A stretch of DNA of 64,000 bases from Bradyrhizobium sp. AZCC 1719. Lineage in GTDB: Bacteria; Pseudomonadota; Alphaproteobacteria; Rhizobiales; Xanthobacteraceae. The first letter of the stretch is position 1; each line of letters opens with the position of its first letter. A program made the translations under genes and the position numbers. The stretch is taken from positions 1-64,000 of the forward strand of contig NZ_JAZHRU010000001.1 in NCBI RefSeq assembly GCF_036924525.1, in the 5' to 3' direction. The notes beneath the pieces were generated by a model. It searched no databases. It was not told the origin of the DNA and was given only the letters and a program-made list of their open reading frames with translations. This document shows positions 1 to 56,011 of the stretch, piece after piece.

Positions 1-6128
<6,128 letters not shown>

Positions 6129-6143
6129 GATCGGAGCCGACCG

Positions 6144-18696
<12,553 letters not shown>

Positions 18697-18700
<4 letters not shown>

Positions 18701-20166
18701 ACCTGCAAAACCCGCCATCGCGCGTGCGCCGGCACCACGCCCCCGCCGATCCCAGCAGCACCACCCATGAGGCGCCGGTCCCGCCGGCGTCAACCCGGGG
18801 GCCGGCATCCCCGCCGCAACTTCATCAATTCGACGAAAAGCAGTTGTGGCGGGCAATGGCGTGGTTCGTCGTGCCGCAGACGGCAAATGCCGTGCTTCAA
18901 TTGTTCTCCGGCACCATCACGGCGATTTATTTCGGGCAGCTTCTCGGCCCATGGGCACTGGCCGTCGCCTCGGTGTTCTTTCCGATCTTCCTTCTGCTGG
19001 TCTCGTTTTTGATCGGCGTCATCACCGGCGGCATCGTTCTCGTCGGTCGCGCCTATGGCGCCGGCGATACGCAGCAGATCAAGAGTGTGACCGGAACCAC
19101 CCTGTGCGTCTGCGCCTTGGTCAGCATTGCCATCGCGGCAGTCGGCTATCGCTTCACTCCGGAACTGCTGGCCGTGATGGCAACGCCGCCGGATATTCTA
19201 TCGCCTGCCGTTGCTTACGCGCGCGTGACGTTCGTCTCGTTGCCGATCATGACATTGTTTTTCGCCTACACCTATCTTCTGCGCGGCACCGGCGATGCGC
19301 GGACGCCGTTCCTGGCGACGGCCTTGTGCATCGCCATCAGCCTGCTACTGACGCCGGCCCTGATCGAAGGCTGGTCCGGACTGCCGAAGCTTGCGGTGAC
19401 GAGCGCCCCGTGCGCCAATCTCGTAGCCTGCACGATATCGCTTCCGGCCCTCATGGCCTATCTTGCGGTCCGGCGACACCCGATGGCGTTCGACCGGGAG
19501 CTGTTGCGCCGAGTTCGGATCGACCCGGCGATCGCCCGATCGTTCCTGGCCATCGGCGTTCCCGCCGGTGTCCAGATGGCGATGGCTTCGCTGTCCGAAG
19601 TGGCAGTGGTCTTTCTCGTTAACGCTTTCGGATCGAGCGCGACCGCCGCTTACGGGGCCGTCAACCAGGTGGTCGGATATCTGCTGGCGCCGATGCAGGG
19701 TGTAGCGCTTGCCGCCACGGCGTTTGCGGCGCAGGCCGTTGGCGCGCGGCGAGCCGACCGGCTCGGAGCGATCACGCGGATTGCGACGGTGCTGAACGTT
19801 CTGATTGGCGCGCCGGTGGTCTGCGTCATCTGCCTGTTCCCGCAGATTGTCCTTTCGTGGTTCATAACCGATCCCGATACGCTGTCGATCGCCAGCCGCG
19901 CCTTACGGATCGCGCTCTGGAGCTATCTGTTGTTCGGAATCGGCAACGTCCTCGCCGGCGTCATGCGAGCGACCGGCGTGGTAGTGTGGCCAGCGGGCAT
20001 TACGATTGCCGCAATCTGGCTGGTCCAATTGCCCATCGCGTACCTGGTCTCCCGCTGGATCGGGCTGGACGGCATCTGGATCGGCTACCCGGCCGGCTTC
20101 ATCGCCGCGCTGCTTGCTCAAGTGATCTACTATGGTTTGGTTTGGCGGCATCGGCCCCACCAATGA
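18697..20166 (+). CDS. MATE family efflux transporter
   Basis: A 489-residue integral membrane protein of the multidrug and toxic compound extrusion (NorM/DinF-like) family. After a ~45-residue Pro/Ala-rich cytoplasmic lead come about twelve hydrophobic segments in two halves, with family-typical stretches such as GAVNQVVGYLLAP and the loop YLLRGTGDARTPF. The start is GTG and overlaps the NRPS stop (GTGA), so translation is coupled and the most likely cargo is the peptide product. MATE pumps use an H+ or Na+ gradient; the cargo here is inferred from context. A convergent gene begins about 120 bp downstream, and I see no clear terminator in that gap. Confidence 0.92.
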
Positions 20167-44409: not shown

Positions 44410-45242
44410 GCGCCGGCTTCCCGGACCGCACGCTTGAGCACGTTCACATGAATATGGCGATGCGCTGCATTCGAGACGCCCGCCTTTGCCAGCAGGACAT
44501 CGGCAACACGCGCATCGAAGCGATCTTTGTAGTCGCCGGCAATGTGTCCGCCGAACAATTCCGCCGCTTTCGTGATGACGACGGGCGCAGAATCGATCGC
44601 ACCGATCACGACGCGGGCGGTCGCGGCGCTCGGATCGATCAGGATAGCGCCGATCGCATGCGCGAATTCGCCTGTCTTGCGGCAACTCTTGGCGTAGCCC
44701 CAGTGCGCCGATGCCGGCATCGCCGGAACATGAATGGTCTCGACGATCTCGCCATCGCGCAGCGCCGATTCGAGCGCGCCGACGATGAACTCCTCCATCG
44801 CCACCATGCGCGCGCCTGAAAGGCTTCGCAGCGTCAGTCGCGCACCCAGGGCCGACAGCGCGGATACCCAGTCTGCCGCGGGATCGGCATGGCTGAGCGA
44901 TCCACCGACCGTGCCGCGATTGCGCACGGCGCGGTAGGCGATGTTGCCGGCGACGCCCTGCATGGCGCCGCGCGTGACGTCCGGAATTCGTCCATCCTCG
45001 ATGTCGGCATGGGTGACACAGGCCCCGATCACGAGCTCATCGCCGCGACGCTCGACCTGCTTGAGCTCGGCAAGCCCCGTGATGTCAACGATTAACTGCG
45101 GCTCCACCAGCCGCAGATTGAGCATGGGACCAAGCGACTGGCCGCCGGCGATGATCTTGGCGGCAGTCTTGGCCTCGTCGAGCACGGCAAGTGCCGCCTG
45201 CAAGTCGCGTGGACGTTCGTAGCCGAAAGGCGCCGGTTTCAT
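44406..45242 (-). CDS. Molybdenum hydroxylase FAD-binding subunit (CoxM-like)
   Basis: A 278-residue FAD-binding subunit: KIIAGGQSLGPMLNLRL (~29-45) and VRNRGTVGGSLSHADPAADW (~105-125) hold the FAD pyrophosphate, and the C-terminal CO-dehydrogenase-flavoprotein domain follows. It passes electrons from the Fe-S subunit to the acceptor. It overlaps both neighbours by ATGA. Confidence 0.92.
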   Translation of the reverse strand: MKPAPFGYERPRDLQAALAVLDEAKTAAKIIAGGQSLGPMLNLRLVEPQLIVDITGLAELKQVERRGDELVIGACVTHADIEDGRIPDVTRGAMQGVAGNIAYRAVRNRGTVGGSLSHADPAADWVSALSALGARLTLRSLSGARMVAMEEFIVGALESALRDGEIVETIHVPAMPASAHWGYAKSCRKTGEFAHAIGAILIDPSAATARVVIGAIDSAPVVITKAAELFGGHIAGDYKDRFDARVADVLLAKAGVSNAAHRHIHVNVLKRAVREAGA

Positions 45243-47623
45243 GCCGCCGGCCTTTCTGCTTCGCGCGCGGCCAGGACCGCCTCGACGACGCGATATGGCG
45301 TAATCGGAGACTGCATCAGTTCGACGCCAAGCGGGCGAAGCGCATCGTTGATGGCGTTAGCGATCGCGGCCGGAGGGGCGATCGCGCCACCCTCGCCGAT
45401 GCCCTTCACGCCGAACTGCGTATAGGGCGACGACGTCTCCATGTGATCGAGACGCGGCGCCGGCACTTCGGTGGGCCCGGGCAGCAGATAGTCCGCGAGC
45501 GTCGTCGCAAGCGGCTGACCGGCCGCATCGAACGGCATTTCCTCGTACAGCGCGGTGCCGATGCCCTGTGCCAGGCCGCCATAGATCTGGCCGTCCACGA
45601 CCATCGGATTGACGAGAACGCCGCCGTCCTCGACGATGACGTAATCGAGGATCTCGATCTCTCCGAGATCGGGATCGACGGCAACGACCGCGGCATGCGC
45701 GGCATAGCTGAAGGTTCCGGTATCGCGCTGTGGCTTGTAGCCAGCCGTGACCTCCAGCCCGCCGGGATCGACGTCAGCAGGCAGATCCTGCGGACGGCGA
45801 TACCAGGTATGGGCGATTTCCTTCAAAGTGACGCTGCCGTTGACGCCGCGAACCTCGCCGCTCTGCAGCACGACCGCAGCCGGATCGTGCTGCAACAGCT
45901 TGGCACCGATGCGTCTGGCGCGCTCGCCCAGCTCACGGCACGCAGTTGCGACAGCGCCGCCTGCCATCACCATCGAGCGCGAACCCCACGTGCCGGTCGA
46001 ATACGGCGTCATCGCCGTGTCGCCGAGGATCAGGCGCACCTTGGCGACGTCGACGCCCAGCATCTCGTGGGCGACCTGGGCCAGCGTCGTCTCCATGCCC
46101 TGACCGTGCGAATGCACGCCGACACGGAGTTCGAGGCCGCCGTCCGGCGTCAGCCGCGCGGAGGCCTGTTCGTGGCCGGGCACCATCGGAATGCCCCAGC
46201 CGGAATAAACCGACGTGCCATGCGCGGCCTGCTCGCAATAGATCGAGACCCCGACGCCGATGCGCCGACTGTCTGCTTTACCCTCGCGCTGACGCGCCCG
46301 TACGCCCTCGACGTCGATCAACGCAAGCGCCCGCCGCATCGCCTCGGGATAGTCGCCGCTGTCGAAGTGCTTGTTGGTAATGTTGTCGAACGGCATCTGC
46401 TCGGGCCGCACCAGATTGCGCAGACGGACTTCGCCCGGCTCCAGTCCGGCTTCCGCCGCGACCAAATCGAGCATCAGTTCAAGTGCAAAGCAGACGCCGG
46501 TACGCGCCACGCCGCGATAAGGCAGGATCGGACACTTGTTGGTGGCGACCGAAAACGTCCGGCAGCGATAGGCCGGCATCAAATACGGTCCCGGCAGGAT
46601 GCTGGCGACCTGCGCCGCCTCAAGGCATGCCGAGAACGGATAGGACGAGTAAGCGCCGGAATCGACGGTTGCTTCGCAGTCGATGCCGCGCAGCCGGCCG
46701 TCACGATCGGCATAGACGGTGATCTTGTAGTGGTGCTCGCGGCAGTTCGAGCTGGCGGTGAGATGCTCGCGGCGATCCTCGGTCCAGCGTACGGGATTAC
46801 CGCGATGCATCGTCAGCCAGGAAAGGCAGACTTCTTCCGGCAGCAGGATTCCCTTGTGCCCGAAGCCGCCGCCAACGTCAGGCGAAACGATACGGATTCG
46901 GCCCTGCTCCATGCCAAGGCATTCGGCAAGCCCGCTGCGCGTGATGTGCGGCATCTGGGCTGAGGAATAGAGCGTGAGTTGATCGAGGCGGTGATCGAAG
47001 GTCGCGACCACGCCACGCCCTTCGAGCGGCGACATGCACTGCCGCGCGGTCGATATCTCGCGCGACACCTTGATCGGCGCATCGAACGCCTTGGAGATGT
47101 CGACCTCGAAGTTGGTTTCGAGAAAGACGTTATCGCCCCAATGCTCGTGCACCAGCGCCGAACCCGGCTCGCGCGCCTTTCGCATGTCATGGACCGCAGG
47201 AAGCTCTTCGAGATCGAGCGTCACCGCCGCCGCAATGTCCTCCGCCTCGGCACGGGTCGGCGCCACGCACATGGCGACGAGTTCGCCGACCTGACGCACC
47301 TTGCCAGTAGCAAGCACCGGCTGCTCGGAAATCTTGAAGCCCGGTAACCCTGAAACCGCGCGGATCGGATTGACGTCGACGAGATCCGCCGCAGTGAAGA
47401 CGCTGCCGCGATAACGCTCCGGCACATGGATGCCGCGGATCAGCGCATGCGCCAAAGGGCTGCGCACAAAAGCGACGTCCTGCAGCCCGGCAAGGCGGAT
47501 GTCGGCCACGAACTGGCCTCGGCCCCGCATCAGCCGATCGTCTTCCTTTCGCGGCAGCCGAGCGCCGACGCCTTGTCCGGCGCCCGCTCCGCCCGCAGAA
47601 GGAAACTCGCGCTCATTGCGCAC
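45239..47623 (-). CDS. Molybdenum hydroxylase large subunit (CoxL/XdhA-like)
   Basis: A 794-residue Mo-cofactor subunit: N-terminal RKEDDRLMRGRGQFVADI, GGGFGHKG near 254, PYRGVARTGV near 369, the cofactor motif HSHGQGMETT near 509 and the C-terminal catalytic glutamate motif KGIGEGG near 744. The site at 369 is YRGVAR and not AYxCSFR, so this is not a form I CO dehydrogenase but one of the many hydroxylases of aromatic N-heterocycles, purines or aldehydes. The operon order large - FAD - Fe-S, all with ATGA overlaps, shows one complex. Confidence 0.92.
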   Translation of the reverse strand: MRNEREFPSAGGAGAGQGVGARLPRKEDDRLMRGRGQFVADIRLAGLQDVAFVRSPLAHALIRGIHVPERYRGSVFTAADLVDVNPIRAVSGLPGFKISEQPVLATGKVRQVGELVAMCVAPTRAEAEDIAAAVTLDLEELPAVHDMRKAREPGSALVHEHWGDNVFLETNFEVDISKAFDAPIKVSREISTARQCMSPLEGRGVVATFDHRLDQLTLYSSAQMPHITRSGLAECLGMEQGRIRIVSPDVGGGFGHKGILLPEEVCLSWLTMHRGNPVRWTEDRREHLTASSNCREHHYKITVYADRDGRLRGIDCEATVDSGAYSSYPFSACLEAAQVASILPGPYLMPAYRCRTFSVATNKCPILPYRGVARTGVCFALELMLDLVAAEAGLEPGEVRLRNLVRPEQMPFDNITNKHFDSGDYPEAMRRALALIDVEGVRARQREGKADSRRIGVGVSIYCEQAAHGTSVYSGWGIPMVPGHEQASARLTPDGGLELRVGVHSHGQGMETTLAQVAHEMLGVDVAKVRLILGDTAMTPYSTGTWGSRSMVMAGGAVATACRELGERARRIGAKLLQHDPAAVVLQSGEVRGVNGSVTLKEIAHTWYRRPQDLPADVDPGGLEVTAGYKPQRDTGTFSYAAHAAVVAVDPDLGEIEILDYVIVEDGGVLVNPMVVDGQIYGGLAQGIGTALYEEMPFDAAGQPLATTLADYLLPGPTEVPAPRLDHMETSSPYTQFGVKGIGEGGAIAPPAAIANAINDALRPLGVELMQSPITPYRVVEAVLAAREAERPAA

Positions 47624-47659: not shown

Positions 47660-48937
47660 TCAGGCCGCAACGGCCTGCGGTAGAATTGGCGCTACTGCGT
47701 CGTATCGCGCACCAGCGCGCAGACAGAACTCAGGCTGCAGCAGACGCTCGGCGATCACTTCATTGTTCTCGTTGTCGCGAAGGACAAATCGTCCGGTTCG
47801 CTCTCCGATCACCGAGACGTCGGCGTCCCTGCCAATCTTGAGGGCGCCGATTTCGTCAGCACGGCCGAGCATCCTGGCCGAGTTGGATGTGACCATCGGC
47901 ACGACCTGCTCCAGCGCGAGGCCGAGCGCCATCATCGAACTCATCGCCTGGACCAGACTGAACTTGGCCTGGCCGGCGAACGGATGATTCTCGTCGTCCT
48001 CATGCTGGTCGGGCGTGCCGGCGGGCGCAGGCACGTGGGTGTTGTAGCCGTGAATGTCCGCGCCGAGCGTGGTGGGGATGATACCGGCGGCGATCGCTTT
48101 TTTGGCGAGACGATAGGAGAAATGACTGCCGTGACCGACGTCGACCTTCAAGCCGCGATCGAGCGCCGCCTGAATCACCGGATGAACTTCACCCTCGCGG
48201 TTGACGAAGCCTCCGGGGTGGCGCGTGAACGGATGCGCCAGTACGTCGCCCTCTCGCAGTAAAGGAAGCACGCGCGCCAAAATCGTATCGACGTCTTCGC
48301 CATTGGTACCACTCTCAGGCAGGCCCCAGAGCTGGCCGAAATGCACATAGACCGGCAAATCGGCGCGGCGTCCGATCTCGGCCGCCATTTCGATGACGCG
48401 AATGCCCCAACGCGCGAAGCCGCCGATCTCCGCATGGGCCTTGATGCCGCGAACGATGTCGAGATTGGCCGTCGCCGCCTTCACCGTGGCGTCGATATCG
48501 ACGCCTTCAGGACTATAGAGTTGCGGATAGTAGTGGCCTTCGAGCCCACCGACCAGATAAGCCGACAGGAATGCATAAACGCGCGACTTCGCAGGCTCGG
48601 CAACGAAATGCCGGAAGCCGGGCAGCGTCATGCAGGACGGACCGCCCTGATCGACCAACGTCGTCACGCCGGACTGGACGCCGACCATGTCGGCATTCAT
48701 GCCGAAGCGACCGGTGACATACTGATAGACATGCGCGTGGGTATCGATGAGGCCGGGCAATACCACCTTGCCGGTCACGTCGATCACCTCTCGGGCGCTG
48801 GTCGGTAAAATGTCGCTCTGCACCGCCGCGATCTTGCCATTGCGGATAGCGACGTCCCTGATGCCATCGATGCCGGAGGCCGGGCATATCACGCGGCCGC
48901 CGCGCAGGAGTTGGTCGAAGGTGGCGCTGATCGACAT
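47660..48937 (-). CDS. Amidohydrolase/deacetylase-type metal-dependent hydrolase
   Basis: A 425-residue amidohydrolase-superfamily enzyme: VVLPGLIDTHAHVYQY (metal HxH), KAHAEIGG (likely bridging lysine), VYVHFG, DVGHGSHFSYRLAKKA and LGADIHGYNTH supply further ligands. It resembles dihydroorotase/deacetylase relatives that cleave cyclic or acyl amides. The ribosome site GGGGAG precedes the ATG by about eight bases. It is first in the operon, so its promoter region holds the 48985-49010 palindrome. It could open the ring made by the hydroxylase. Confidence 0.88.
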   Translation of the reverse strand: MSISATFDQLLRGGRVICPASGIDGIRDVAIRNGKIAAVQSDILPTSAREVIDVTGKVVLPGLIDTHAHVYQYVTGRFGMNADMVGVQSGVTTLVDQGGPSCMTLPGFRHFVAEPAKSRVYAFLSAYLVGGLEGHYYPQLYSPEGVDIDATVKAATANLDIVRGIKAHAEIGGFARWGIRVIEMAAEIGRRADLPVYVHFGQLWGLPESGTNGEDVDTILARVLPLLREGDVLAHPFTRHPGGFVNREGEVHPVIQAALDRGLKVDVGHGSHFSYRLAKKAIAAGIIPTTLGADIHGYNTHVPAPAGTPDQHEDDENHPFAGQAKFSLVQAMSSMMALGLALEQVVPMVTSNSARMLGRADEIGALKIGRDADVSVIGERTGRFVLRDNENNEVIAERLLQPEFCLRAGARYDAVAPILPQAVAA

Positions 48938-49689: not shown

Positions 49690-49800
49690 GCTGCTGCAGC
49701 TCGCTTGTGTAAGCGGTTTTCGGATTGTCGAATCGCCCAGCTCTCGCCCCTGTTCGACGATGCGGCCGTTATTCAGAACAATGGTCGCCGTTTTGGCGTC
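49690..49800 (-). pseudogene. Fragment of oligopeptide ABC-transporter ATPase (left flank of tRNA array)
   Basis: On the - strand this reads ATIVLNNGRIVEQG and then, after a frame change, NPKTAYTSEL, which matches the C-terminus of DppF/GsiA/YejF-type ATPases. The DNA is a diverged copy of the stretch at about 54814-54902 on the other side of the tRNA array. No Walker A part is present. It is a remnant. Confidence 0.65.
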
Positions 49801-49833: not shown

Positions 49834-49908
49834 TGGCACCGGCTGACTGAATCGAACAGTCGACATCGGATTTTGGAGGCCCGCGTTCTGCCACTGAACT
49901 AAGCCGGT
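49834..49908 (-). tRNA. tRNA-Trp(CCA)
   Basis: Acceptor ACCGGCT/AGCCGGT, discriminator G, encoded CCA. Anticodon loop CTCCAAA; T arm GACTG-TTCGATT-CAGTC. The last anticodon-stem pair is mismatched. Confidence 0.85.
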
Positions 49909-49911
49909 ATC

Positions 49912-49986
49912 TGGTCCTGACTGGGAGAGTCGAACTCCGCATCTCCCGGTCCACAACCGAGCATCCTGCCATTGAACGAAGTCAGG
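49912..49986 (-). tRNA. tRNA-His(GTG)
   Basis: Acceptor CCTGACT/AGTCAGG, A discriminator, encoded CCA. Anticodon loop TTGTGGA on stem CTCGG/CCGGG. The base before the acceptor is T, so the usual encoded G-1 of tRNA-His is missing. Confidence 0.88.
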
Positions 49987-50028
49987 AGAGATTGAATGGT
50001 CACCTGTCGCGTAGTCGGCGACAGGAAA

Positions 50029-50103
50029 TGGTCGCGGGTACGGGGGTCGAACCCGCCACTCCAGCCTTATGAGAGCCGGCCCCTTCCCTGCCGAGGCCCC
50101 GCG
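50029..50103 (-). tRNA. tRNA-Met or Ile2 (CAT), first of three
   Basis: Acceptor CGCGGGG/ACCCGCG (one mismatch at the seventh pair), A + CCA. Anticodon loop CTCATAA. D arm is irregular. It lacks both the C1xA72 mismatch and the three G-C pairs of an initiator. Confidence 0.8.
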
Positions 50104-50109
50104 AGAAAT

Positions 50110-50185
50110 TGGCAAGCGCGGCAGGACTCGAACCTGCGATAACCGGAATCAAAATCCGGCGCTTGGCCAGCTTGGCGACGCGCCC
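50110..50185 (-). tRNA. tRNA-Gln(TTG)
   Basis: Acceptor GGGCGCG/CGCGCTT with two G-T pairs, discriminator G, encoded CCA. Anticodon loop TTTTGAT on stem CCGGA/TCCGG; T arm GCAGG-TTCGAGT-CCTGC. Confidence 0.9.
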
Positions 50186-50204
50186 AAAAATTTGGTCATG
50201 AATT

Positions 50205-50281
50205 TGGTCCTGCCAACGGGAGTTCAACCCGCGAAGTCCAGCGTTGAAAGCGCCGTACCCTTAGCACCAGGCGATGGCAGG
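50205..50281 (-). tRNA. tRNA-Glu(TTC), variant T-loop
   Basis: Acceptor CCTGCCA/TGGCAGG, A + CCA. Anticodon loop CTTTCAA. The T-loop is TTGAACT, so the near-universal C56 is G. Confidence 0.82.
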
Positions 50282-50282
50282 T

Positions 50283-50358
50283 TGGCGCGGGCGGCCGGGA
50301 TCGAACCGAACACCTCCTGTTTGGAAGACAGGCACGCAGCCCACTACGCCACGCCCGC
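50283..50358 (-). tRNA. tRNA-Gly(TCC)
   Basis: Acceptor GCGGGCG/CGCCCGC, G + CCA. Anticodon loop CTTCCAA on stem CCTGT/ACAGG. T-loop TTCGATC. Confidence 0.9.
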
Positions 50359-50410
50359 AAGAAGAAGCAGCCGCAATTGACGAGGAAGGCCCGCGCTATC
50401 CGCCTAATAA

Positions 50411-50434
50411 GATCCAATCGATTGCGATTGGATC
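50411..50434. repeat. Perfect 10+10 bp inverted repeat between tRNA genes
   Basis: Arms GATCCAATCG and CGATTGGATC with a 4-base loop ATTG, in the 95-bp spacer between tRNA-Ser(GCT) and tRNA-Gly(TCC). In the array transcript it would form a strong hairpin. No T tract follows on either strand. Confidence 0.8.
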
Positions 50435-50453
50435 GTCCATCGGTTTCACGTGA

Positions 50454-50540
50454 TGGCGGAGAGTACAGGGATCGAACCTGTGCGTCCCGAAGGACTCGAC
50501 GCGTTAGCACCGCGTTGCCTTGCCTCTCGGCCAACTCTCC
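50454..50540 (-). tRNA. tRNA-Ser(GCT)
   Basis: Class II tRNA of 87 nt: acceptor GGAGAGT/ACTCTCC, G + CCA, anticodon loop GTGCTAA on ACGCG/CGCGT, long variable arm with a TTCG loop, T-loop TTCGATC. Confidence 0.92.
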
Positions 50541-50638
50541 AATTCGGATGATGATCGCGGCGAAGCTCAAACCGGACGGCCATGTGCCGACAAGTATCAG
50601 ACAAGATCGGCTTTTCCTCGGGCCAAATTGATGAATGA

Positions 50639-50714
50639 TGGCGCACTCGGCTGGACTCGAACCAGCATAGGGCCGTTTAGAAGACGGCTGACCATCCAGT
50701 TGGTCCACGAGCAC
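50639..50714 (-). tRNA. tRNA-Arg(TCT)
   Basis: Acceptor GTGCTCG/CGAGTGC with two wobble pairs, G + CCA. Anticodon loop CTTCTAA on GCCGT/ACGGC; T-loop TTCGAGT. Confidence 0.9.
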
Positions 50715-50721
50715 ATGCTGA

Positions 50722-50793
50722 AGGCCCCGGCCGGTGCTGCCCCGGCTCATAGCGGTTTTGCAGACCGCCGCGTTCCTGTTTCGCCACAGGGCC
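50722..50793 (-). tRNA. tRNA-Cys(GCA), variant T-loop, no encoded CCA
   Basis: Acceptor GGCCCTG/CGGGGCC, discriminator T as usual for Cys, then TCA in place of CCA. Anticodon loop CTGCAAA on GCGGT/ACCGC. The T-loop is GGCAGCA in place of TTCRANN. Confidence 0.78.
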
Positions 50794-50797
50794 AAAT

Positions 50798-50871
50798 TGG
50801 CTGCGCGCGCAGGAATCGAACCTGCCTGAACGGATTCAGAGTCCGTCGCCTGACCGCTCGGCCAGCGCGCG
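50798..50871 (-). tRNA. tRNA-Gln(CTG)
   Basis: Acceptor CGCGCGC/GCGCGCA (first pair C-A), G + CCA. Anticodon loop CTCTGAA on ACGGA/TCCGT; T-loop TTCGATT. Confidence 0.87.
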
Positions 50872-50878
50872 ATGATCG

Positions 50879-50954
50879 TCAGCGTGGGTGGATTCGAACC
50901 ACCGATCCCCTGCTTCCAAGGCAGGTAGGGACGGCCAGGCTCCCCTACACGCTG
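50879..50954 (-). tRNA. tRNA-Pro(TGG)
   Basis: Acceptor CAGCGTG/CACGCTG, A discriminator, CCA not encoded. Anticodon loop CTTGGAA on CCTGC/GCAGG; T-loop TTCGAAT. Confidence 0.9.
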
Positions 50955-50962
50955 ATGATGAT

Positions 50963-51039
50963 TGGCCTTCCCGGCAGGACTCGAACCTGCATACCTTCGC
51001 GTTCGTAGCGCGCTGCTCATCCAGTCGAGCTACGGGAAG
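50963..51039 (-). tRNA. tRNA-Arg(ACG)
   Basis: Acceptor CTTCCCG/CGGGAAG, G + CCA. Anticodon loop CTACGAA. T-loop TTCGAGT. The first anticodon-stem pair is mismatched. Confidence 0.9.
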
Positions 51040-51046
51040 TTGAATA

Positions 51047-51121
51047 TGGCACTGCCAGCGGGACTCGAACCCGCGTCGACCGGCTGAGAACCGGGCATCC
51101 TTGCCGCTAGACGATGGCAGC
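51047..51121 (-). tRNA. tRNA-Glu(CTC)
   Basis: Acceptor GCTGCCA/TGGCAGT, G + CCA. Anticodon loop TTCTCAG; T-loop TTCGAGT. Confidence 0.88.
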
Positions 51122-51199
51122 GTGTCGATTTGTTCGACCATGATGAGGTCGCTTCCGTTTCCGCAGCCCAAGTCAGGCACGACATCGGAAGTGGTGGAT

Positions 51200-51275
51200 T
51201 GGCTCCCGCCGCACGATTCGAACGTGCCTTCCTCCGTTAACAGCGGAGCGCCCTCACCGAGATGGCTCGACGGGA
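51200..51275 (-). tRNA. tRNA-Asn(GTT)
   Basis: Acceptor TCCCGTC/GGCGGGA, G + CCA. Anticodon loop CTGTTAA on CTCCG/CGGAG; T arm GCACG-TTCGAAT-CGTGC. Confidence 0.92.
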
Positions 51276-51281
51276 ATGAAA

Positions 51282-51353
51282 TGGTGGAGCAACGGAGAGT
51301 CGAACTCCGGACGTCGATCTTGCAAGGATCAACTGCAGCCCGCTGCCTGCCCC
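51282..51353 (-). tRNA. tRNA-Ala(TGC), shortened D-arm
   Basis: Acceptor GGGGCAG/TTGCTCC with two wobble pairs, A + CCA. Anticodon loop CTTGCAA on TGATC/GATCG. The D region is only 15 nt and folds as GCAG-CGGG-CTGC, lacking the usual GG-containing loop. Confidence 0.82.
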
Positions 51354-51357
51354 GAAC

Positions 51358-51433
51358 TGGTACCCAGCGCCAGATTTGAACTGGCCTCCTGCGCTCTTCA
51401 GGCGCGTGCAATCACCAGATTTGCTAACTGGGC
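51358..51433 (-). tRNA. tRNA-Phe(GAA)
   Basis: Acceptor GCCCAGT/GCTGGGT, A + CCA. Anticodon loop CTGAAGA; T arm GCCAG-TTCAAAT-CTGGC. Confidence 0.9.
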
Positions 51434-51437
51434 TAGA

Positions 51438-51512
51438 TGGCGCGGACGTCGGTAATCGAAACCGATTCTCCTGAGTGGCACTCAGGTGCTCGACCTTCCA
51501 CGCTACGTCCGC
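51438..51512 (-). tRNA. tRNA-Gly(GCC)
   Basis: Acceptor GCGGACG/CGTCCGC, G + CCA. Anticodon loop GTGCCAC on CCTGA/TCAGG; T-loop TTCGATT. Confidence 0.9.
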
Positions 51513-51520
51513 ATTGATGG

Positions 51521-51599
51521 TGGTGGGTAACCCTGGAATCGAACCAGGCAGGCACAAAGGCGCAGGCTTTACAGGCCCGCTCAGTCCCCAGACTTACCC
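51521..51599 (-). tRNA. tRNA-Tyr(GTA)
   Basis: Acceptor GGGTAAG/GTTACCC, A + CCA. Anticodon loop CTGTAAA on CGGGC/GCCTG; long variable arm as in bacterial Tyr; T arm CCTGG-TTCGATT-CCAGG. Confidence 0.9.
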
Positions 51600-51603
51600 A
51601 AAT

Positions 51604-51680
51604 TGGTTGCAGGCCCCGGGGTTGCACCGGGCTCAACGCGGCTTATGAGACCGCATGGATACCTAACCGATCTGCCTGCG
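51604..51680 (-). tRNA. tRNA-Met(CAT) with C1xA72 mismatch, initiator-like acceptor
   Basis: 5' CGCAGGC faces 3' GCCTGCA, leaving C1 opposite A72, a mark of bacterial initiator tRNA. Anticodon loop CTCATAA, but the stem GCGGT/GCCGC lacks the three G-C pairs. T-loop TGCAACC is also unusual. Confidence 0.82.
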
Positions 51681-51687
51681 ATAAATA

Positions 51688-51748
51688 GTGCCAAGGCTGC
51701 AAACTCCTCGGCTGCGCCGGCGTACATCCGGCCTGGCGCGATCGTTCA
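51688..51748 (-). pseudogene. Possible tRNA remnant
   Basis: A 61-bp spacer holds a perfect 5-bp stem GCCGG/CCGGC with loop ATGTACG and a second stem CCGAGG/CCTTGG with an 8-nt loop, in anticodon-arm/T-arm order. No matching acceptor is found. Confidence 0.35.
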
Positions 51749-51824
51749 TGGCGGAGAGCCGAGGACCTGAGCCTCACACCTTTCGGTGCCATCGGTATTC
51801 GAAGCCGTGCCGGCGCGCCTGTCC
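51749..51824 (-). tRNA. tRNA-Ser(CGA)-like, D-arm almost absent
   Basis: Acceptor GGACAGG/GCTCTCC with two mismatches, G + CCA. Loop TTCGAAT gives anticodon CGA; long variable arm (GCACC-GAAA-GGTG) fits Ser. Only 9 nt separate acceptor and anticodon stem, and the T-loop is CTCAGGT. Probably degenerate. Confidence 0.6.
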
Positions 51825-51844
51825 GGTTCGTCATCCATCAAATT

Positions 51845-51920
51845 TGGCCACCACGATAGGACTCGAACCTGCATCCTCGACCTTCGGAGGGTCGTGCTCA
51901 TCCTGTTGAGCTACGTGGTG
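51845..51920 (-). tRNA. tRNA-Arg(CCG)
   Basis: Acceptor CACCACG/CGTGGTG, G + CCA. Anticodon loop CTCCGAA on CGACC/GGTCG; T-loop TTCGAGT. Confidence 0.92.
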
Positions 51921-51957
51921 ATGGTTCGCCGGCGGCCGCAACTCGCCGCCGGCGCCG

Positions 51958-52494
51958 TTACTTCTCGAGCTCGGCATCCCAGTACAGATAGTCGCGCCAA
52001 GTTTCGTGCAGAAAGTTCGGCGGGAAGAGACGCTGGGCCGCCATCAGGTCGTGCTGCGTCGGCTCAAATGGCTTGCGCAGCGGCTTGAGGTGGAAGCGGT
52101 CCTTGCGCGTGTTGCAGGGGCTGCAGGCCGCCACGATGTTGGTCCAGGACGTCTGGCCGCCGTCCGCCCGCGGGACGACGTGGTCGAACGTCAATTCGCC
52201 GCGCAGATGCTGGTCACCGCAATACTGGCAGCGGAAGCGATCGCGAAGAAAGACATTGAACCGCGTGAAGGCGACGCGAACCTGTGGCCGCACATACTCG
52301 CGCAGCGCGATGACCGACGGCAGCCGCATCACCGTCGACGGGCTGCGGACCACCTCGTCGTATTCTGCGACGACGACGTGCGATCCCTTCACGACCGCCT
52401 TGACGGCGTCCTCCCAGTTGAACAGCGACAACGGGAAGTAGTTGAGCGGCTGGAAGTCCGCATTGAGGACAAGAGCCGGGTTTGCTGCGAACAT
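51958..52494 (-). CDS. HNH endonuclease
   Basis: A 178-residue HNH nuclease. The zinc knuckle is Cys89-x2-Cys92 and Cys124-x2-Cys127; the catalytic stretch is FDHVVPRADGG (Asp104-His105) followed by Asn119 and Asn128. The N-terminal ~80 residues (LNADFQPLNYFPLSLFNWEDAVKAV) are the usual lead of this HNH family in proteobacteria and phages. The ribosome site GGAGAGG precedes the ATG. It is inserted between tRNA-Arg(CCG) and tRNA-Met(CAT), same strand, so it is probably co-transcribed with the tRNAs. HNH genes near tRNA clusters are known in phages and mycobacterial arrays. Target DNA unknown. Confidence 0.92.
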   Translation of the reverse strand: MFAANPALVLNADFQPLNYFPLSLFNWEDAVKAVVKGSHVVVAEYDEVVRSPSTVMRLPSVIALREYVRPQVRVAFTRFNVFLRDRFRCQYCGDQHLRGELTFDHVVPRADGGQTSWTNIVAACSPCNTRKDRFHLKPLRKPFEPTQHDLMAAQRLFPPNFLHETWRDYLYWDAELEK

Positions 52495-52516
52495 TGCCCT
52501 CTCCTCTCTTTGGCGG

Positions 52517-52591
52517 TGGTGGGCGCCACCGGATTTGAACCGATATGTGGGCTGTTATGAGCAGCCGGGTCTACCGTTGAGCTAGACGCCC
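52517..52591 (-). tRNA. tRNA-Met or Ile2 (CAT), third
   Basis: Acceptor GGGCGTC/GGCGCCC, A + CCA. Anticodon loop CTCATAA on GGCTG/CAGCC; T-loop TTCAAAT. Could read AUA if its C34 is lysidinylated. Confidence 0.9.
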
Positions 52592-52595
52592 GGAT

Positions 52596-52669
52596 TGGTC
52601 AGGATGGCGGGATTTGAACCTGCGCTCTCACGCATCCGAGGCGTGCGCTTTGGCCGGCTATACATCCTG
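52596..52669 (-). tRNA. tRNA-Pro(CGG)
   Basis: Acceptor CAGGATG/CATCCTG, A + CCA. Anticodon loop CTCGGAT on CACGC/GCGTG; T-loop TTCAAAT. Confidence 0.9.
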
Positions 52670-52673
52670 GAAT

Positions 52674-52748
52674 TGGCGCCCATGACGAGGATCGAACTCG
52701 CCTTCCCGGATCGACAATCCGGTCCCTTCGCCAGATGGGGACATGGGC
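52674..52748 (-). tRNA. tRNA-Asp(GTC)
   Basis: Acceptor GCCCATG/CATGGGC, G + CCA. Anticodon loop TTGTCGA on CCGGA/TCCGG; T-loop TTCGATC. Confidence 0.92.
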
Positions 52749-52751
52749 CAT

Positions 52752-52834
52752 TGGTGCGCTCGGCCGGGCTCGAACCGGCATGGTCTCCCACCGCCCTCTC
52801 AAGACGGCGCGTCTACCCGTTTCGCCACGAGCGC
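52752..52834 (-). tRNA. tRNA-Leu(GAG)
   Basis: Class II, 83 nt: acceptor GCGCTCG/CGAGCGC, A + CCA, loop TTGAGAG on CCGTC/GGCGG, long variable arm, T-loop TTCGAGC. Confidence 0.9.
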
Positions 52835-52841
52835 GAATGTT

Positions 52842-52925
52842 TGGAGGACCTGGTCGGACTCGAACCGACGATGCTTTCGCGACGGATTAAGAATCCGCTC
52901 CCTTGGCCGCTGGGGGCACAGGTCC
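52842..52925 (-). tRNA. tRNA-Lys(CTT) anticodon on a tRNA with long variable arm and U73
   Basis: Acceptor GGACCTG/CAGGTCC, discriminator T, CCA. Loop TTCTTAA gives CTT. The variable region is 12 nt (GC-GAAA-GC core) where Lys tRNAs have 5, and U73 is not usual for Lys. Confidence 0.8.
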
Positions 52926-52929
52926 GTTG

Positions 52930-53012
52930 TGGAGGATCCGGGTGGTTTCGAACCACTTGCGCACGGGTTAAAAATCCGCTCCATCTCCATTCAGGTTTGA
53001 CGCTCCGGATCC
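52930..53012 (-). tRNA. tRNA-Lys(TTT), enlarged D region, U73
   Basis: Acceptor GGATCCG/CGGATCC, discriminator T, CCA. Loop TTTTTAA gives TTT. The D region is 26 nt, longer than usual; variable loop 5 nt; T-loop TTCGAAA. Confidence 0.8.
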
Positions 53013-53155
53013 ATCGGTTTGATGGTTGCGGCGGCCAGCCGCTCCGATTTCACATGGCGCGCCATGATGGCGTCGCTCCTCGCCTTTGCCCTGACAAGCG
53101 CGGCCTGGCTCTCGGTGGAGAGAAGGTGCACGCCGGCAGGCAGGTTCTCGCTCAT
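52991..53155 (-). CDS. Small ORF in the tRNA array, unknown function
   Basis: A 54-codon frame (MSENLPAGVHLLSTES... IKPMDPERQT) with a strong ribosome site GGGAGG five bases before ATG. The protein is charged and helical, with no recognised domain. Its last 22 bases overlap the 5' end of tRNA-Lys(TTT). It lies between that tRNA and tRNA-Ile(GAT) on the same strand. Confidence 0.5.
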   Translation of the reverse strand: MSENLPAGVHLLSTESQAALVRAKARSDAIMARHVKSERLAAATIKPMDPERQT

Positions 53156-53174
53156 GACGACCTCCCATGCTGTC

Positions 53175-53248
53175 TGGTCCTCCCGTGATGAATCGAACAT
53201 CCGTCGATCGCTTATCAAGCGATTGCTCTGCCATTGAGCTACGGGAGG
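53175..53248 (-). tRNA. tRNA-Ile(GAT)
   Basis: Acceptor CCTCCCG/CGGGAGG, A + CCA. Anticodon loop TTGATAA on ATCGC/GCGAT; D arm TAGCTCAATGGCAGAGC; T-loop TTCGATT. Confidence 0.92.
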
Positions 53249-53255
53249 GAATTGA

Positions 53256-53332
53256 TGGTACGTCCGGCAGGCTCTGCCCCTGCCGCCTCCACCATGTCAC
53301 AGCGGTGCTCTCCTCAAATGAGCTACGGACGC
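53256..53332 (-). tRNA. tRNA-Val(GAC), variant T-loop
   Basis: Acceptor GCGTCCG/CGGACGT, A + CCA. Loop GTGACAT on the weak stem CCGCT/GGTGG. The T-loop is GGCAGAG on GCAGG/CCTGC, the same departure seen in the Cys tRNA of this array. Confidence 0.8.
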
Positions 53333-53336
53333 GAGT

Positions 53337-53411
53337 TGGTGCACGCTGACCGGATCGAACGGCCGACATCCTGCGTGTGAAACAGGCGCTCTTCCGCTGA
53401 GCTAAGCGCGC
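53337..53411 (-). tRNA. tRNA-Val(CAC)
   Basis: Acceptor GCGCGCT/AGCGTGC, A + CCA. Loop TTCACAC on CCTGT/GCAGG; T-loop TTCGATC. Confidence 0.9.
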
Positions 53412-53423
53412 GCTAAAGGATAG

Positions 53424-53463
53424 GTCCGCCGGGCGCCACCCCTACCGATTGGGCTACGCGGAC
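53424..53463 (-). pseudogene. Truncated tRNA: acceptor plus D-arm only
   Basis: GTCCGC (5') and GCGGAC (3') can pair around a D-arm-like TAGCCCAATCGGTAGGG. The anticodon and T arms are missing. A 40-bp deletion product of a former tRNA gene. Confidence 0.55.
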
Positions 53464-53492
53464 ATTTACCTACGCAATGGAATTGCAAAGTC

Positions 53493-53569
53493 TGGTGCTC
53501 CACGACGGATTCGAACCGCCAACGCACGGAGTCTAAGTCCGTCGCCTCTACCTGTTGGGCTAGTGGAGC
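53493..53569 (-). tRNA. tRNA-Leu(TAG) anticodon on a class I (short variable arm) tRNA
   Basis: Acceptor GCTCCAC/GTGGAGC, A + CCA. Loop CTTAGAC on ACGGA/TCCGT gives TAG. The variable loop is 5 nt (GCGTT), whereas leucine tRNAs are class II. T-loop TTCGAAT. Confidence 0.85.
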
Positions 53570-53901
53570 GAAATGAGGTTCGGAGCGGTGTTCATGTCGA
53601 TATTTCCTGGCACGCGCGCCGCAAGCGCTCGGTTCGGCCAGGCGCAGGCGAACGCTCGCCGCAGTGATCCCTGCAATTTTCAGTTCTGGGTGAGGATTTT
53701 TCGGCTGCAATCGCGACGGAAGCGCCCGCTGATGCGGGGCGACGGACGCGTACAAGATTTCGGAATAATGGAAAAATGCCCCTGATTTGCCCGACGCGTC
53801 AAGTTGCTTTGTCGAATGCCGGCGGCGGCCTGCTACTTTGCATGGGGTTGTTTTCGACATTTTGAGGGCGGCGCTCTACGCTGTAGCTACGCGGGCAAGA
53901 T
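53570..53901. other. Spacer of 332 bp in the tRNA array
   Basis: No convincing gene on either strand. The right part (53772-53865) looks like an interspersed intergenic repeat; the left part shows nothing I can name. Confidence 0.5.
53772..53865. repeat. Possible Bradyrhizobium-type intergenic repeat
   Basis: The stretch from AAAATGCCCCTGATTTGC to TTTGCATGGGGTTGTTTTCG resembles an intergenic sequence I recall as common in Bradyrhizobium genomes. Recognition is from memory; no second copy is in this window. Confidence 0.35.
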
Positions 53902-53968
53902 TGGTGCCGGTAGAAAGGATCGAACTTCCGACCCTGGCTTTACAGAAATCCTGCACTGCTACGCCGGC
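53902..53968 (-). tRNA. tRNA-like gene, anticodon TGT (Thr) by spacing, shortened D-arm
   Basis: Acceptor GCCGGCG/TACCGGC (one mismatch), A + CCA, T arm GGAAG-TTCGATC-CTTTC. Canonical spacing puts anticodon TGT in loop TCTGTAA, but base 33 would be C and the stem is poor. The D region is 10 nt. GTA is the alternative reading. Confidence 0.5.
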
Positions 53969-53983
53969 GTGAAATCTACCAAC

Positions 53984-54002
53984 GGCCGGGACAATCCCGG
54001 CC
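53984..54002. repeat. 8+8 bp perfect hairpin upstream of the first tRNA
   Basis: Arms GGCCGGGA and TCCCGGCC around CAA. It lies just 5' of the tRNA array in transcript direction. No T tract follows, so it is not a clear terminator. Confidence 0.6.
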
Positions 54003-54118
54003 AACAAAACACTCGCTGCCTGAAACCACCGTTTGCCGCTCCACTGAAGGAGACCGGTACCGGTCAGCGGATCGCCTTATGTCCTCGCAGGGGCGACCAT
54101 CCTGTATTCGAAATCACT

Positions 54119-54319
54119 TCACGTCATCTCGCGGCGGCCGTGGTGGCACGCCGACCGAGGTCGGTTGATGTAGTCGAGGTAAATCTGGCGGGCTTCGGAC
54201 TCGGAGATCCCTCGGCGCGCCACAACGGTGCGCACAAAGGCGAGCGCGATCGGCGAGGAGAAAATCCTCTCGCGGGTACGGTTCTCGAGTTCTGTCTCGG
54301 TGGTGTTCTTGCGGGCCAT
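54119..54319 (-). CDS. Small protein upstream of the tRNA array, unknown function
   Basis: A 66-residue frame, MARKNTTETELENRTRERIFSS..., with a good ribosome site GGAGG five bases before ATG; longer in-frame starts upstream lack one. It is polar and helical, containing SPIALAFVRTVVARRGISESEARQIYLDYINR, which may be a small DNA- or RNA-binding helix pair. No family recognised. It reads toward the tRNAs and is the first gene of the unit. Confidence 0.6.
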   Translation of the reverse strand: MARKNTTETELENRTRERIFSSPIALAFVRTVVARRGISESEARQIYLDYINRPRSACHHGRREMT

Positions 54320-54764
54320 GTTGCCCTCCGCCTGGTTGGCAGAGGGTGGATTCCCGCTGCCTGTTACGCTCTGCCTGCTATCCTGTTGGTCCCGAGATAT
54401 TCGGGCTTCGTCAGATAGCTCGGACCTTGTTCCGTCACGGACATGCACGACCAATCGCACGGCCGAATAAACGGCAGCGCGGCGGCGGCTTTCGCGACGA
54501 TATGTGAGCGCAATCGCAACACGGTTTCGGTCCTTAAAGAGCGCCGGCGAGTTCGACGGCGTTTTGTGGGGCAGCGGTATGCACAGAGATTTGCGAATCC
54601 GTCAAGAGCAATCGACCAACTATTTGCGGCGGGCGCTTCGCCGCCGGCAGCGCTAACGAACGTTTTTTCGCTGCTAATGTGTTCCGATAACACAGCTATT
54701 TGCTCGACCGCTCGCGTGAAGATCGAGCGCGAATAATTTGAGGCTATCTTCGTTTTGCTTCAGG
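54320..54764. other. Upstream region of the tRNA array, 445 bp
   Basis: Probably the promoter region of the array. It holds a dyad TGTGTT-N5-AACACA (54678-54694) and a 7-bp acceptor-like pair GGCAGAG/CTCTGCC (54348-54375) in the leader of the small protein. No convincing gene. Confidence 0.5.
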
Positions 54765-55005
54765 TCGCGAACGCAGCCAGTTCTGCCTCGATATGCGGCA
54801 CCGCGTCGACCAGTTCGCGTGTGTAAGCGGCTTTCGGATTGCCGACATCGCCCGGCTTTCGCCCTGTTCGACGAAGCGGCCATTTTGCAGCACGATGGTT
54901 CGATCGCACTTCATGCGAACCACGTTGAGATCATGGCTGACAAAGAGGAAGGCCAAGTCATCCTCGCGCCGCAACCGGTCGAGCAGTATTTGGGACGCGA
55001 CGGTT
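54765..55005 (-). pseudogene. Fragment of oligopeptide ABC-transporter ATPase (right flank of tRNA array)
   Basis: Reads [46 protein letters not shown], the Walker-B-downstream and H-loop part of a DppF/GsiA/YejF-type ATPase, and after a frame change [21 protein letters not shown]. An in-frame stop precedes ASQILL. It is a decayed C-terminal piece; a shorter diverged copy flanks the array on the left (49690-49800). Confidence 0.75.
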
Positions 55006-55141: not shown

Positions 55142-56011
55142 CTAAGCGCCACCTTCCCCCACAAGGGGAGGAGGAACAAGATAAGCCCGCTGAGCGTTCG
55201 GCCCAAACGCCTTGTGGCGCACCTGCGGACCAAGCTTCATCAGGCACTCCTCGAGCGCGCTCTTGATCTCGCGATAGCTGTCGGCGAGCAGACAGACCGG
55301 CCAGTCGGAGCCGAAGATCAGACGATCCTCGCCAAAACATCTGGCGGCATGCTCGACCAAGGGGAACAGACGAGCCGAGTCCCAATCGTCCCACTTCGCC
55401 TCAGTGGCGAGGCCTGAAATTTTGCACCAGACATTGCCGCACTCGGCGAGCGCTGCGAGACGATCGGCCCATTCACGGCTGAAGCCGTCGGCGATCGGCG
55501 GCTTGGCGGCGTGATCGAGAACAAAGCGCCCTTGCGGAAACGCCTGCGCGGTTGCGATCGCGGCCGGCATTTCTCGCGTGCGTACCAGGAGATCGTAGGT
55601 GAGATCGTGCGCAACCACTGCGCTCAAGCCCCGCTGCACGTCCTCGCGCAGCAGCCAATCAGGATCGGGCTCATCGTGCACCTGGTGACGAATGCCGACC
55701 AGCCTTTCGCCTCCGGGCAAGCCGCGCAGCCGTTCGAGCGTCTCGTCGACCGTGCCGCCCGTCAGGTCGACCCAGCCGACCACACCGATCACGAAGGGCG
55801 TCGCAGCGGCGACGCGCAAGAATTCCTCGGTCTCCTCGATCGAGGAACGGCATTGCACCAGAATGCTCGCATCGATCCCGTTGGCGCGAAGCAGCGGCGC
55901 GAGATCGCTCGGGCCGAAGGCGCGGCGGATCCGCGCGAGTTCAGGCGCCTCCATCCAGGGATAATCGGCGCGCGCGGGATCCCAGAAATGCTGATGACCG
56001 TCGATCACCAT
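55142..56011 (-). CDS. Amidohydrolase family 2, sugar-lactonase type
   Basis: A 289-residue TIM-barrel hydrolase of the COG3618 group (L-fucono-, L-rhamnono-lactonase): start MVIDGHQHFWDPARADYPWM with the HxH metal motif, FVLDHAAKPPI and the C-terminal LIFGSDWPVC with its metal Asp. It is the last gene of the sugar operon, 3 bp after the aldo/keto reductase, so it likely hydrolyses the lactone that enzyme makes. The last residues (NAQRAYLVPPPLVGEGGA) are atypical: the frame reads into a C/G-rich palindromic stretch at about 55151-55174 that has replaced the normal end. Confidence 0.88.
   Translation of the reverse strand: MVIDGHQHFWDPARADYPWMEAPELARIRRAFGPSDLAPLLRANGIDASILVQCRSSIEETEEFLRVAAATPFVIGVVGWVDLTGGTVDETLERLRGLPGGERLVGIRHQVHDEPDPDWLLREDVQRGLSAVVAHDLTYDLLVRTREMPAAIATAQAFPQGRFVLDHAAKPPIADGFSREWADRLAALAECGNVWCKISGLATEAKWDDWDSARLFPLVEHAARCFGEDRLIFGSDWPVCLLADSYREIKSALEECLMKLGPQVRHKAFGPNAQRAYLVPPPLVGEGGA

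Follow-up and report, generated by a model that had tools for sequence, protein, structure and literature searches.

What is a dense run of 32 transfer RNA (tRNA) and tRNA-like genes doing in a Bradyrhizobium chromosome, and where did it come from? The run lies in the window analysed here, which is the first 64 kb (positions 1 to 64,000) of the 7,200,329-bp contig NZ_JAZHRU010000001.1 of Bradyrhizobium sp. AZCC 1719. The original prediction, made from the letters of the DNA, regarded it as an acquired accessory unit of the phage or plasmid type. This view was borne out, as a core tRNA set is encoded elsewhere, the array members have low identity to host tRNAs, arrays of the same kind occur in prophages, and relatives have an empty site. 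The conserved unit (~49834-54756, ~4.9 kb) reaches upstream beyond the tRNA run to ~54756, and is made up of a conserved leader with a promoter-like element, a small open reading frame (ORF) here called LEAD, the tRNA genes, and an HNH endonuclease gene in the middle of the array. The two conserved ORFs (LEAD at 54119-54319 and HNH at 51958-52494) were not among the features first listed. It is rather probable that the unit evolved in temperate Bradyrhizobium phages, where it would serve as a spare tRNA set, and that it now stands alone in this chromosome.

Accessory status and prophage copies

A search of the single contig with the RF00005 model detected 67 tRNAs at E <= 0.001, including 21 in the array and 46 elsewhere. 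The 46 non-array tRNAs are scattered over the contig, and ARAGORN typing assigned them to all 20 amino acids (their list has no Leu(TAA) and may miss a gene); the array is therefore accessory. That the array is itself the core tRNA set, its members being the sole copies, was ruled out by these 46 genes. A recent duplication of host tRNAs was also ruled out, since the array members are 55-78% identical to the host tRNAs with the same anticodon.

A scan with the LEAD alignment found 19 loci in genome contigs, of which 18 belong to Bradyrhizobium records and one to a Hyphomicrobiales metagenome-assembled genome. The same scan of IMG/VR found seven contigs, all of which (7/7) have tRNA arrays. One of the seven (132 kb) corresponds to contig C4 of another Bradyrhizobium genome (G302), and this contig carries a tailed-phage prophage: 10/10 submitted proteins matched PHROGs, including terminase, portal, head protease, two major head proteins, minor tail protein, tape measure, endolysin, DnaB-like helicase and integrase. 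The 31-tRNA array of this prophage sits between endolysin and integrase. The PHROGs check covers G302; the IMG/VR contigs L201, L205, L206 and L207 are viral by IMG/VR's own label. In two further genomes (G320 and G234), many of the G302 phage proteins are found near the arrays in the same succession, and the viral status there is by synteny. The window and phage arrays agree in the leader, LEAD, tRNA order and HNH position, and the phage order is that of the window plus a few extra members.

When the 112 ORFs of the G302 phage region (from a simple ORF caller) were compared with the window and with L046-L050 (60-120 kb and the final 40 kb of the contig), none matched anything beyond the array. 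Judged from its sequence, the window unit resembles a prophage array but is not part of a prophage. A near-identical plasmid or phage record was also considered and rejected; with blastn against two collections, no single record covered more than 8% and 6% of the array, respectively. Arrays of similar order were observed at L052, L053 and L130 (G101 and G185, from another genus of the family), with HNH proteins 65-68% identical; no LEAD was found in L130.

The window unit is free-standing, with an ABC-transporter gene remnant on one side and marR on the other. The empty site, with the ABC gene next to marR and no array, is present in 13/14 fetched relatives; these were chosen from the best matches, and the exception (L175 in G425) has no ABC gene there. 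The ABC gene is intact in G290, where the array comes after it, and G290 has the marR flank in common with the window genome, which indicates that both share the insertion site. In G437 the ABC 3' end also comes directly before the array. The ABC gene of the window genome has been cut short, and past the array its 3' end recurs as an incomplete second copy; these repeats (84% identical) are, by their similarity, a partial gene duplication. Two genomes (G335 and G201) have the empty site here and an array at another place.

For comparison, 20 array loci were fetched from other genomes. Group A (the window relatives L111-L119) aligns with the window from ~438 bases upstream of LEAD to the CCA of tRNA-Trp. 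By flank comparison, ten group A arrays fall into six insertion sites, five of which differ from the window site. Their 5' ends lie within ~60 bases of one another, with ACGAAG at the 5' end in 8/10, and the 3' end is the tRNA-Trp CCA in 9/9 arrays with a mapped end. As the ends are similar at several sites, the unit seems to move as one piece. No ORF of the ~4.9-kb insert was typed as an integrase, nine window ORFs having been put to Pfam.

Composition of the unit and selection on its parts

The dense one-strand array of the original prediction was recovered with ARAGORN: its 25 tRNA genes called for the 64-kb window all fall on the minus strand at 49834-53569 (25 in 3.74 kb, or 6.7 per kb). 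With Rfam, 22 tRNA matches exceeded the gathering score in a search of the window, and 24 in a search of 5 kb. It reported 22/25 ARAGORN genes (missing Asn, Ala and the tRNA(CAT) at 51604), together with two others, Cys(GCA) and Val(GAC). No rRNA family was matched by Rfam in the window, in agreement with the predicted lack of ribosomal RNA. Altogether 32 tRNA or tRNA-like genes could be placed, the same number as predicted; though five of them (Tyr, Thr(TGT), Lys(TTT), Ser(CGA) and the third CAT) are below the ARAGORN and Rfam thresholds and were placed by eye or by a low score. The claim of 19 amino acids plus a weak Thr(TGT) was reduced: 17 are supported by ARAGORN and 18 with Cys. Thr is weak as stated, but Tyr is also weak in the window; it is called at the same array place in several relatives. 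Among the three predicted CAT tRNAs, two were called by ARAGORN, and the third is the one placed by eye. The features, by position in the window, are as follows.

49834..54756 (-): whole conserved unit (leader, LEAD, tRNA array, HNH); its ends are where similarity to arrays at other sites stops
~54756 (-): 5' unit end, the 3' unit end being the CCA of tRNA-Trp; from comparison with arrays elsewhere
54576..54605 (-): promoter-like CTTGACG-N18-CATACC in leader; leader alignment, function inferred
54325..54345 (-): small hairpin CCTCTGCC/GGCGGAGG over the likely Shine-Dalgarno of LEAD; arm covariation
54119..54319 (-): LEAD ORF, 66 aa, uncharacterised; frame open in relatives
53902..53968 (-): Thr(TGT)-like, without D arm; Rfam 21.7 bits, below gathering
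53574..53870 (no strand): dispersed genus repeat inserted in array; second genome copy, 87%
53493..53569 (-): tRNA-Leu(TAG); ARAGORN and Rfam
53423..53463 (-): tRNA relic, acceptor and D-arm parts only; read by eye
53337..53411 (-): tRNA-Val(CAC); ARAGORN and Rfam
53256..53332 (-): Val(GAC), degenerate T loop; Rfam 33 bits
53175..53248 (-): tRNA-Ile(GAT); ARAGORN and Rfam
52991..53155 (-): small ORF, 54 aa, overlapping the Lys(TTT)-like gene; tblastn relatives in 8/20 fetched array loci
52930..53012 (-): Lys(TTT)-like; by eye, Lys(TTT) called beside Lys(CTT) in phage arrays L120 and L121
52842..52925 (-): tRNA-Lys(CTT), T73; ARAGORN and Rfam
52752..52834 (-): tRNA-Leu(GAG); ARAGORN and Rfam
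52674..52748 (-): tRNA-Asp(GTC); ARAGORN and Rfam
52596..52669 (-): tRNA-Pro(CGG); ARAGORN and Rfam
52517..52591 (-): tRNA(CAT); ARAGORN and Rfam
51958..52494 (-): HNH endonuclease gene, 178 aa, mid-array, between tRNA(CAT) and Arg(CCG); PF14279/PF01844
51845..51920 (-): tRNA-Arg(CCG); ARAGORN and Rfam
51749..51836 (-): Ser(CGA)-like, degenerate; by eye, Ser(CGA) called beside Arg(CCG) in L052 and L053
51604..51680 (-): tRNA(CAT), degenerate T loop; ARAGORN
51521..51600 (-): Tyr(GTA); tRNA-Sec model 25.8 bits, below gathering
51438..51512 (-): tRNA-Gly(GCC); ARAGORN and Rfam
51358..51433 (-): tRNA-Phe(GAA); ARAGORN and Rfam
51282..51363 (-): tRNA-Ala(TGC); ARAGORN, not Rfam
51200..51275 (-): tRNA-Asn(GTT); ARAGORN, not Rfam
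51047..51121 (-): tRNA-Glu(CTC); ARAGORN and Rfam
50963..51039 (-): tRNA-Arg(ACG); ARAGORN and Rfam
50878..50954 (-): tRNA-Pro(TGG), altered 3' CCA; ARAGORN and Rfam
50798..50871 (-): tRNA-Gln(CTG); ARAGORN and Rfam
50719..50793 (-): Cys(GCA), degenerate T loop; Rfam 42.2 bits
50639..50714 (-): tRNA-Arg(TCT); ARAGORN and Rfam
50454..50540 (-): tRNA-Ser(GCT); ARAGORN and Rfam
50283..50358 (-): tRNA-Gly(TCC); ARAGORN and Rfam
50205..50281 (-): tRNA-Glu(TTC); ARAGORN and Rfam
50110..50185 (-): tRNA-Gln(TTG); ARAGORN and Rfam
50029..50103 (-): third CAT tRNA-like gene; by eye, tRNA(CAT) called after Gln(TTG) in L120, L122 and L130
49912..49986 (-): tRNA-His(GTG), A73 like host tRNA-His; ARAGORN and Rfam
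49834..49908 (-): tRNA-Trp(CCA), 3' end of unit; ARAGORN and Rfam
54811..54899 (-): part of the 3'-end remnant of the ABC-transporter ATPase gene, outside the unit at the insertion site
49697..49785 (-): partial repeat of this ABC 3' end, across the array from it, 84% identical

The dispersed repeat at 53574-53870 breaks into the window array, and the arrays of several relatives continue without it at this place. This repeat (~290 bases) has a second copy at G000:C1:2758446-2758741 (87%), with matches in many genomes of the genus.

Alignment of 33 leaders (including three second fetches of the same arrays) showed that CTTGAC and GCATA are kept in 32/33, L193 being the one that deviates. The hairpin arms over the likely ribosome-binding site of LEAD covary (TCTGCC/GGCAGAG versus TCCGCC/GGCGGAG). 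The LEAD frame is open in 40/41 loci, with none found in L130; 13/41 loci came from the LEAD scan itself, and without them 27/28 are open. The length of LEAD varies among loci and the frame is kept. LEAD has 599 homologous proteins, and its predicted structure is composed of three helices (mean predicted local distance difference test score 79). Searches of LEAD gave no Pfam family above chance, no PDB or fold match worth naming, and no convincing structural relative. A boxA-like antiterminator in the leader was considered and dropped, since GCTCTTTAA is missing from some leaders; nor do the 700 bases ahead of the host 16S gene contain GCTCTT. The deviating locus L193 (B. jicamae PAC68, near 8001) has a LEAD homologue, and no tRNA was called there in 16 kb.

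The HNH protein was typed by PF14279/PF01844. Its gene has tRNA(CAT) and Arg(CCG) as the nearest called tRNAs in 14/39 loci checked; in the remaining loci at least one of the two is uncalled (three call Ile(TAT) instead of CAT), and the called neighbours fit the same place in the order. No in-frame stop was found in 65 distinct HNH genes collected (0/65), of which 27 represent a paralogue (58-61% identical) outside arrays; copies cut off by the end of a locus did not enter the count. The median ratio of nonsynonymous to synonymous substitution rates (dN/dS) of the HNH gene is 0.111 in the stand-alone group A (55 pairs), 0.088 in group C, 0.068 in group D, 0.064 in group E, and 0.167 in the phage arrays. 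The gene is thus under purifying selection, which is strong in the four stand-alone groups measured (A, C, D and E). The array-type HNH is carried by at least 35/265 genomes of the genus among the matches listed, the genome studied here included. The paralogue outside arrays is widespread: 192/198 family genomes match the array HNH, and the paralogue, mostly single-copy, accounts for nearly all of these matches.

The tRNAs of group A have diverged at 0.22 of the fourfold-site divergence of HNH. Their stems are paired at 97.4%, compared with a shuffled mean of 94.9%; in the phage arrays the values are 96.9% and 79.2%. This stem test leans to intact genes because it was restricted to ARAGORN tRNAs ending in CCA, with Met and sets under four left out. 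ARAGORN called 31-33 tRNAs in three phage arrays, whereas only 10-25 were called in the group A stand-alone arrays. In group D, LEAD and HNH are kept, and tRNA-Asp was called in 4/7 distinct loci (most of which have common flanks), together with relics of other tRNAs. As read from these substitution and pairing patterns, selection maintains HNH and many tRNAs, with other window tRNAs decaying. A tentative and rather doubtful extension is that the leader, LEAD and HNH form the lasting core, namely a phage-derived gene pair kept under selection after tRNA loss with a function of its own. If true, LEAD and HNH might be, for example, a nucleic-acid-cutting defence or mobility module, and the tRNA array might be its protection or vehicle.

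Function and alternative explanations

In the proposed mechanism, the leader promoter would transcribe LEAD, the tRNAs and HNH as one operon, whose tRNAs the host would process and charge. In the phage, the most likely role of the array would be to sustain protein synthesis during infection if host tRNAs are cut or translation comes under stress. The mid-array HNH probably acts like the homing endonucleases of phage tRNA regions, by spreading or amplifying the region. In the window genome, a copy would have moved in between the ABC-transporter gene and marR. Parts of the published papers cited here describe related roles: phage tRNAs can rescue infection from tRNA-cleaving defences (PMC11555353), they were argued to evade tRNA-cleaving nucleases (PMC10264068), and a homing endonuclease amplifies a tRNA gene for the same end (PMC13096335). 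Such a tRNA-replacement role seems most likely for the phage array, and the case would be weaker for the chromosomal copy. Base 73 is that of the host cognate in 25/30 CCA-ended window tRNAs and in 153/170 phage-array tRNAs, which fits charging by host synthetases for most array tRNAs.

Several observations weigh against this explanation. Base 73 differs from the host in all called group A copies of Lys(CTT), both Gly and Glu(TTC), and their charging is therefore doubtful. The anticodon loops are identical to those of the host in 10/29 non-CAT tRNAs, which is not what uniform nuclease evasion predicts. The replacement of nuclease-cut host tRNAs, as put forward in the original prediction, may hold, but its link to PrrC/RloC-type nucleases (PF13166) was not supported: there is no match over the cut-off in the host genome, and across 265 genomes such matches occur in 9/35 array-bearing genomes (picked by hand among the matches listed) versus 59/230 others (Fisher p = 1.0). 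Moreover, several window tRNAs are degenerate, and the Rfam scores of the window (median ~49 bits) are below those of two phage arrays (54-56) and of the core set (~66). Related HNH genes were also checked in four phages, and no tRNA is annotated within 4 kb of them, which suggests that the HNH family itself is not tied to tRNAs. The HNH tree has weak support at its deep nodes (several under 60), and a phage-to-chromosome direction would therefore rest on the distribution more than on the tree. LEAD has a dN/dS of 0.54 in group A at low dS (0.18, versus 0.39 for HNH), and part of its conservation may therefore act on the nucleotide sequence.

An alternative that is somewhat improbable, but deserves consideration, is an HNH-centred homing unit in which LEAD and HNH replicate while the tRNAs hitch-hike or act as recombination arms, in the manner of SegB and the tRNA region of T-even phages; SegB is a GIY-YIG enzyme. 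The persistence of LEAD and HNH where most tRNAs are gone, the strong constraint on HNH and the several insertion sites would agree with it. However, the matches to HNH in 192/198 family genomes, mostly a single gene at ~60% identity, and the HNH relatives outside tRNA regions in four phages are atypical for a homing gene, and the paired changes in tRNA stems also speak against it.

It is rather unlikely that the array is a dead relic, left over from a decayed prophage and with no function in the host. The lower number of called tRNAs in group A (10-25 versus 31-33 in three phage arrays), the degenerate members and the inserted repeat in the window array, and the loss of nearly all tRNAs in group D would be expected of a relic; whereas the HNH gene is intact and under purifying selection in four stand-alone groups (median dN/dS 0.06-0.11), and the tRNAs that ARAGORN still calls have diverged at 0.22 of the fourfold rate. 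The similar ends at six sites are also unlike random prophage decay, and none of the 112 phage-region ORFs was matched nearby.

A reserve tRNA operon for the translational stress of the host itself, like the trn operon of Anabaena, is unlikely. The unit is kept in the chromosome with selection on its tRNAs, and the Anabaena operon is described, in the available part of the report, as silent and induced by ribosome-targeting antibiotics (PMC10272220). However, the present unit is patchy (array-type HNH in at least 35/265 genomes of the genus), occupies differing sites and is undergoing loss, and no regulator was identified. Codon compensation, in which the tRNAs fit the codons of phage or foreign genes, is very unlikely: the GC content is slightly lower in the unit (0.605 versus 0.641 for the window) and in the phage region of G302 at 24-104 kb (0.613 versus 0.639 for its flank), but none of the 32 array anticodons is absent from the 46 other tRNAs, and nearly all amino acids are covered rather than rare codons. 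The predicted support of foreign genes, if by new decoding capacity, was likewise not borne out by these anticodons.

Known tRNA arrays and neighbouring genes

The purpose of near-complete tRNA sets in phages and some bacteria has been debated for decades. The present unit is available for comparison within phages, free-standing in chromosomes at six sites (one of which has sequenced empty sites), and in a tRNA-poor form that keeps the leader, LEAD and HNH. Separate tests of the tRNAs, LEAD and HNH thus become possible in soil bacteria that are not pathogenic, and the unit offers a natural test case for phage tRNA arrays.

The following comparisons draw on parts of the cited papers. A tRNA array unit was defined as at least 20 tRNA genes at a density of at least 2 per kb (PMC5966550, after Tran et al.); the window array has 25 genes at 6.7 per kb with ARAGORN, which is also the predictor used in that paper. 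It shares with the mycobacterial type the redundancy with a housekeeping set elsewhere and the embedded HNH gene. The array units of Mycobacterium, found on chromosomes, prophages and plasmids, likewise have at least 20 redundant, densely packed tRNAs, an embedded HNH and differing flanks, and transfer from prophage to chromosome has been put forward for one group of them (PMC5966550, PMC12803027). This likeness is by definition and gene content. As far as these parts of the papers go, the present unit differs in that it belongs to another phylum, is opened by LEAD and a conserved leader, has no phage trace near the stand-alone copy, and has a resolved empty site.

Other systems share single features. 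The trn operon of Anabaena PCC 7120 likewise adds a long operon of 26 accessory tRNA genes to a housekeeping set; whereas it is megaplasmid-borne and repressed by TrcR (PMC10272220). The tRNA array of Acidithiobacillus was also horizontally acquired by a proteobacterial chromosome, but lies within a 300-325-kb island or integrative element, while only ~4.9 kb was inserted here (PMC5468388). The SegB tRNA region of phage T6 also has a nuclease gene beside tRNA genes (PMC13096335); whereas the HNH gene here is found in a temperate phage, and its cleavage is putative. No paper describing Bradyrhizobium tRNA arrays was found among the titles and abstract openings listed by the literature search, whose coverage of subscription journals was thin and did not extend to the Tran et al. 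survey. In the available text of a Bradyrhizobium prophage paper (PMC10127595), the word tRNA occurs once, in a genome table. The mycobacterial kind of array is therefore known, and what appears new here is LEAD, the resolved insertion sites and the tRNA-poor state; a negative literature search is no proof of novelty.

The neighbours of the insertion include molybdopterin dehydrogenase and amidohydrolase genes (45242-47623, 47663-48937 and 55145-56011, all on the minus strand), which suggest a catabolic neighbourhood. At the other end of the window, 3-18700 on the plus strand holds three very large ORFs (2041, 2164 and 2021 aa). The first of these is a non-ribosomal peptide synthetase with condensation, AMP-binding and carrier domains, and a MatE transporter then follows at 18697-20166.

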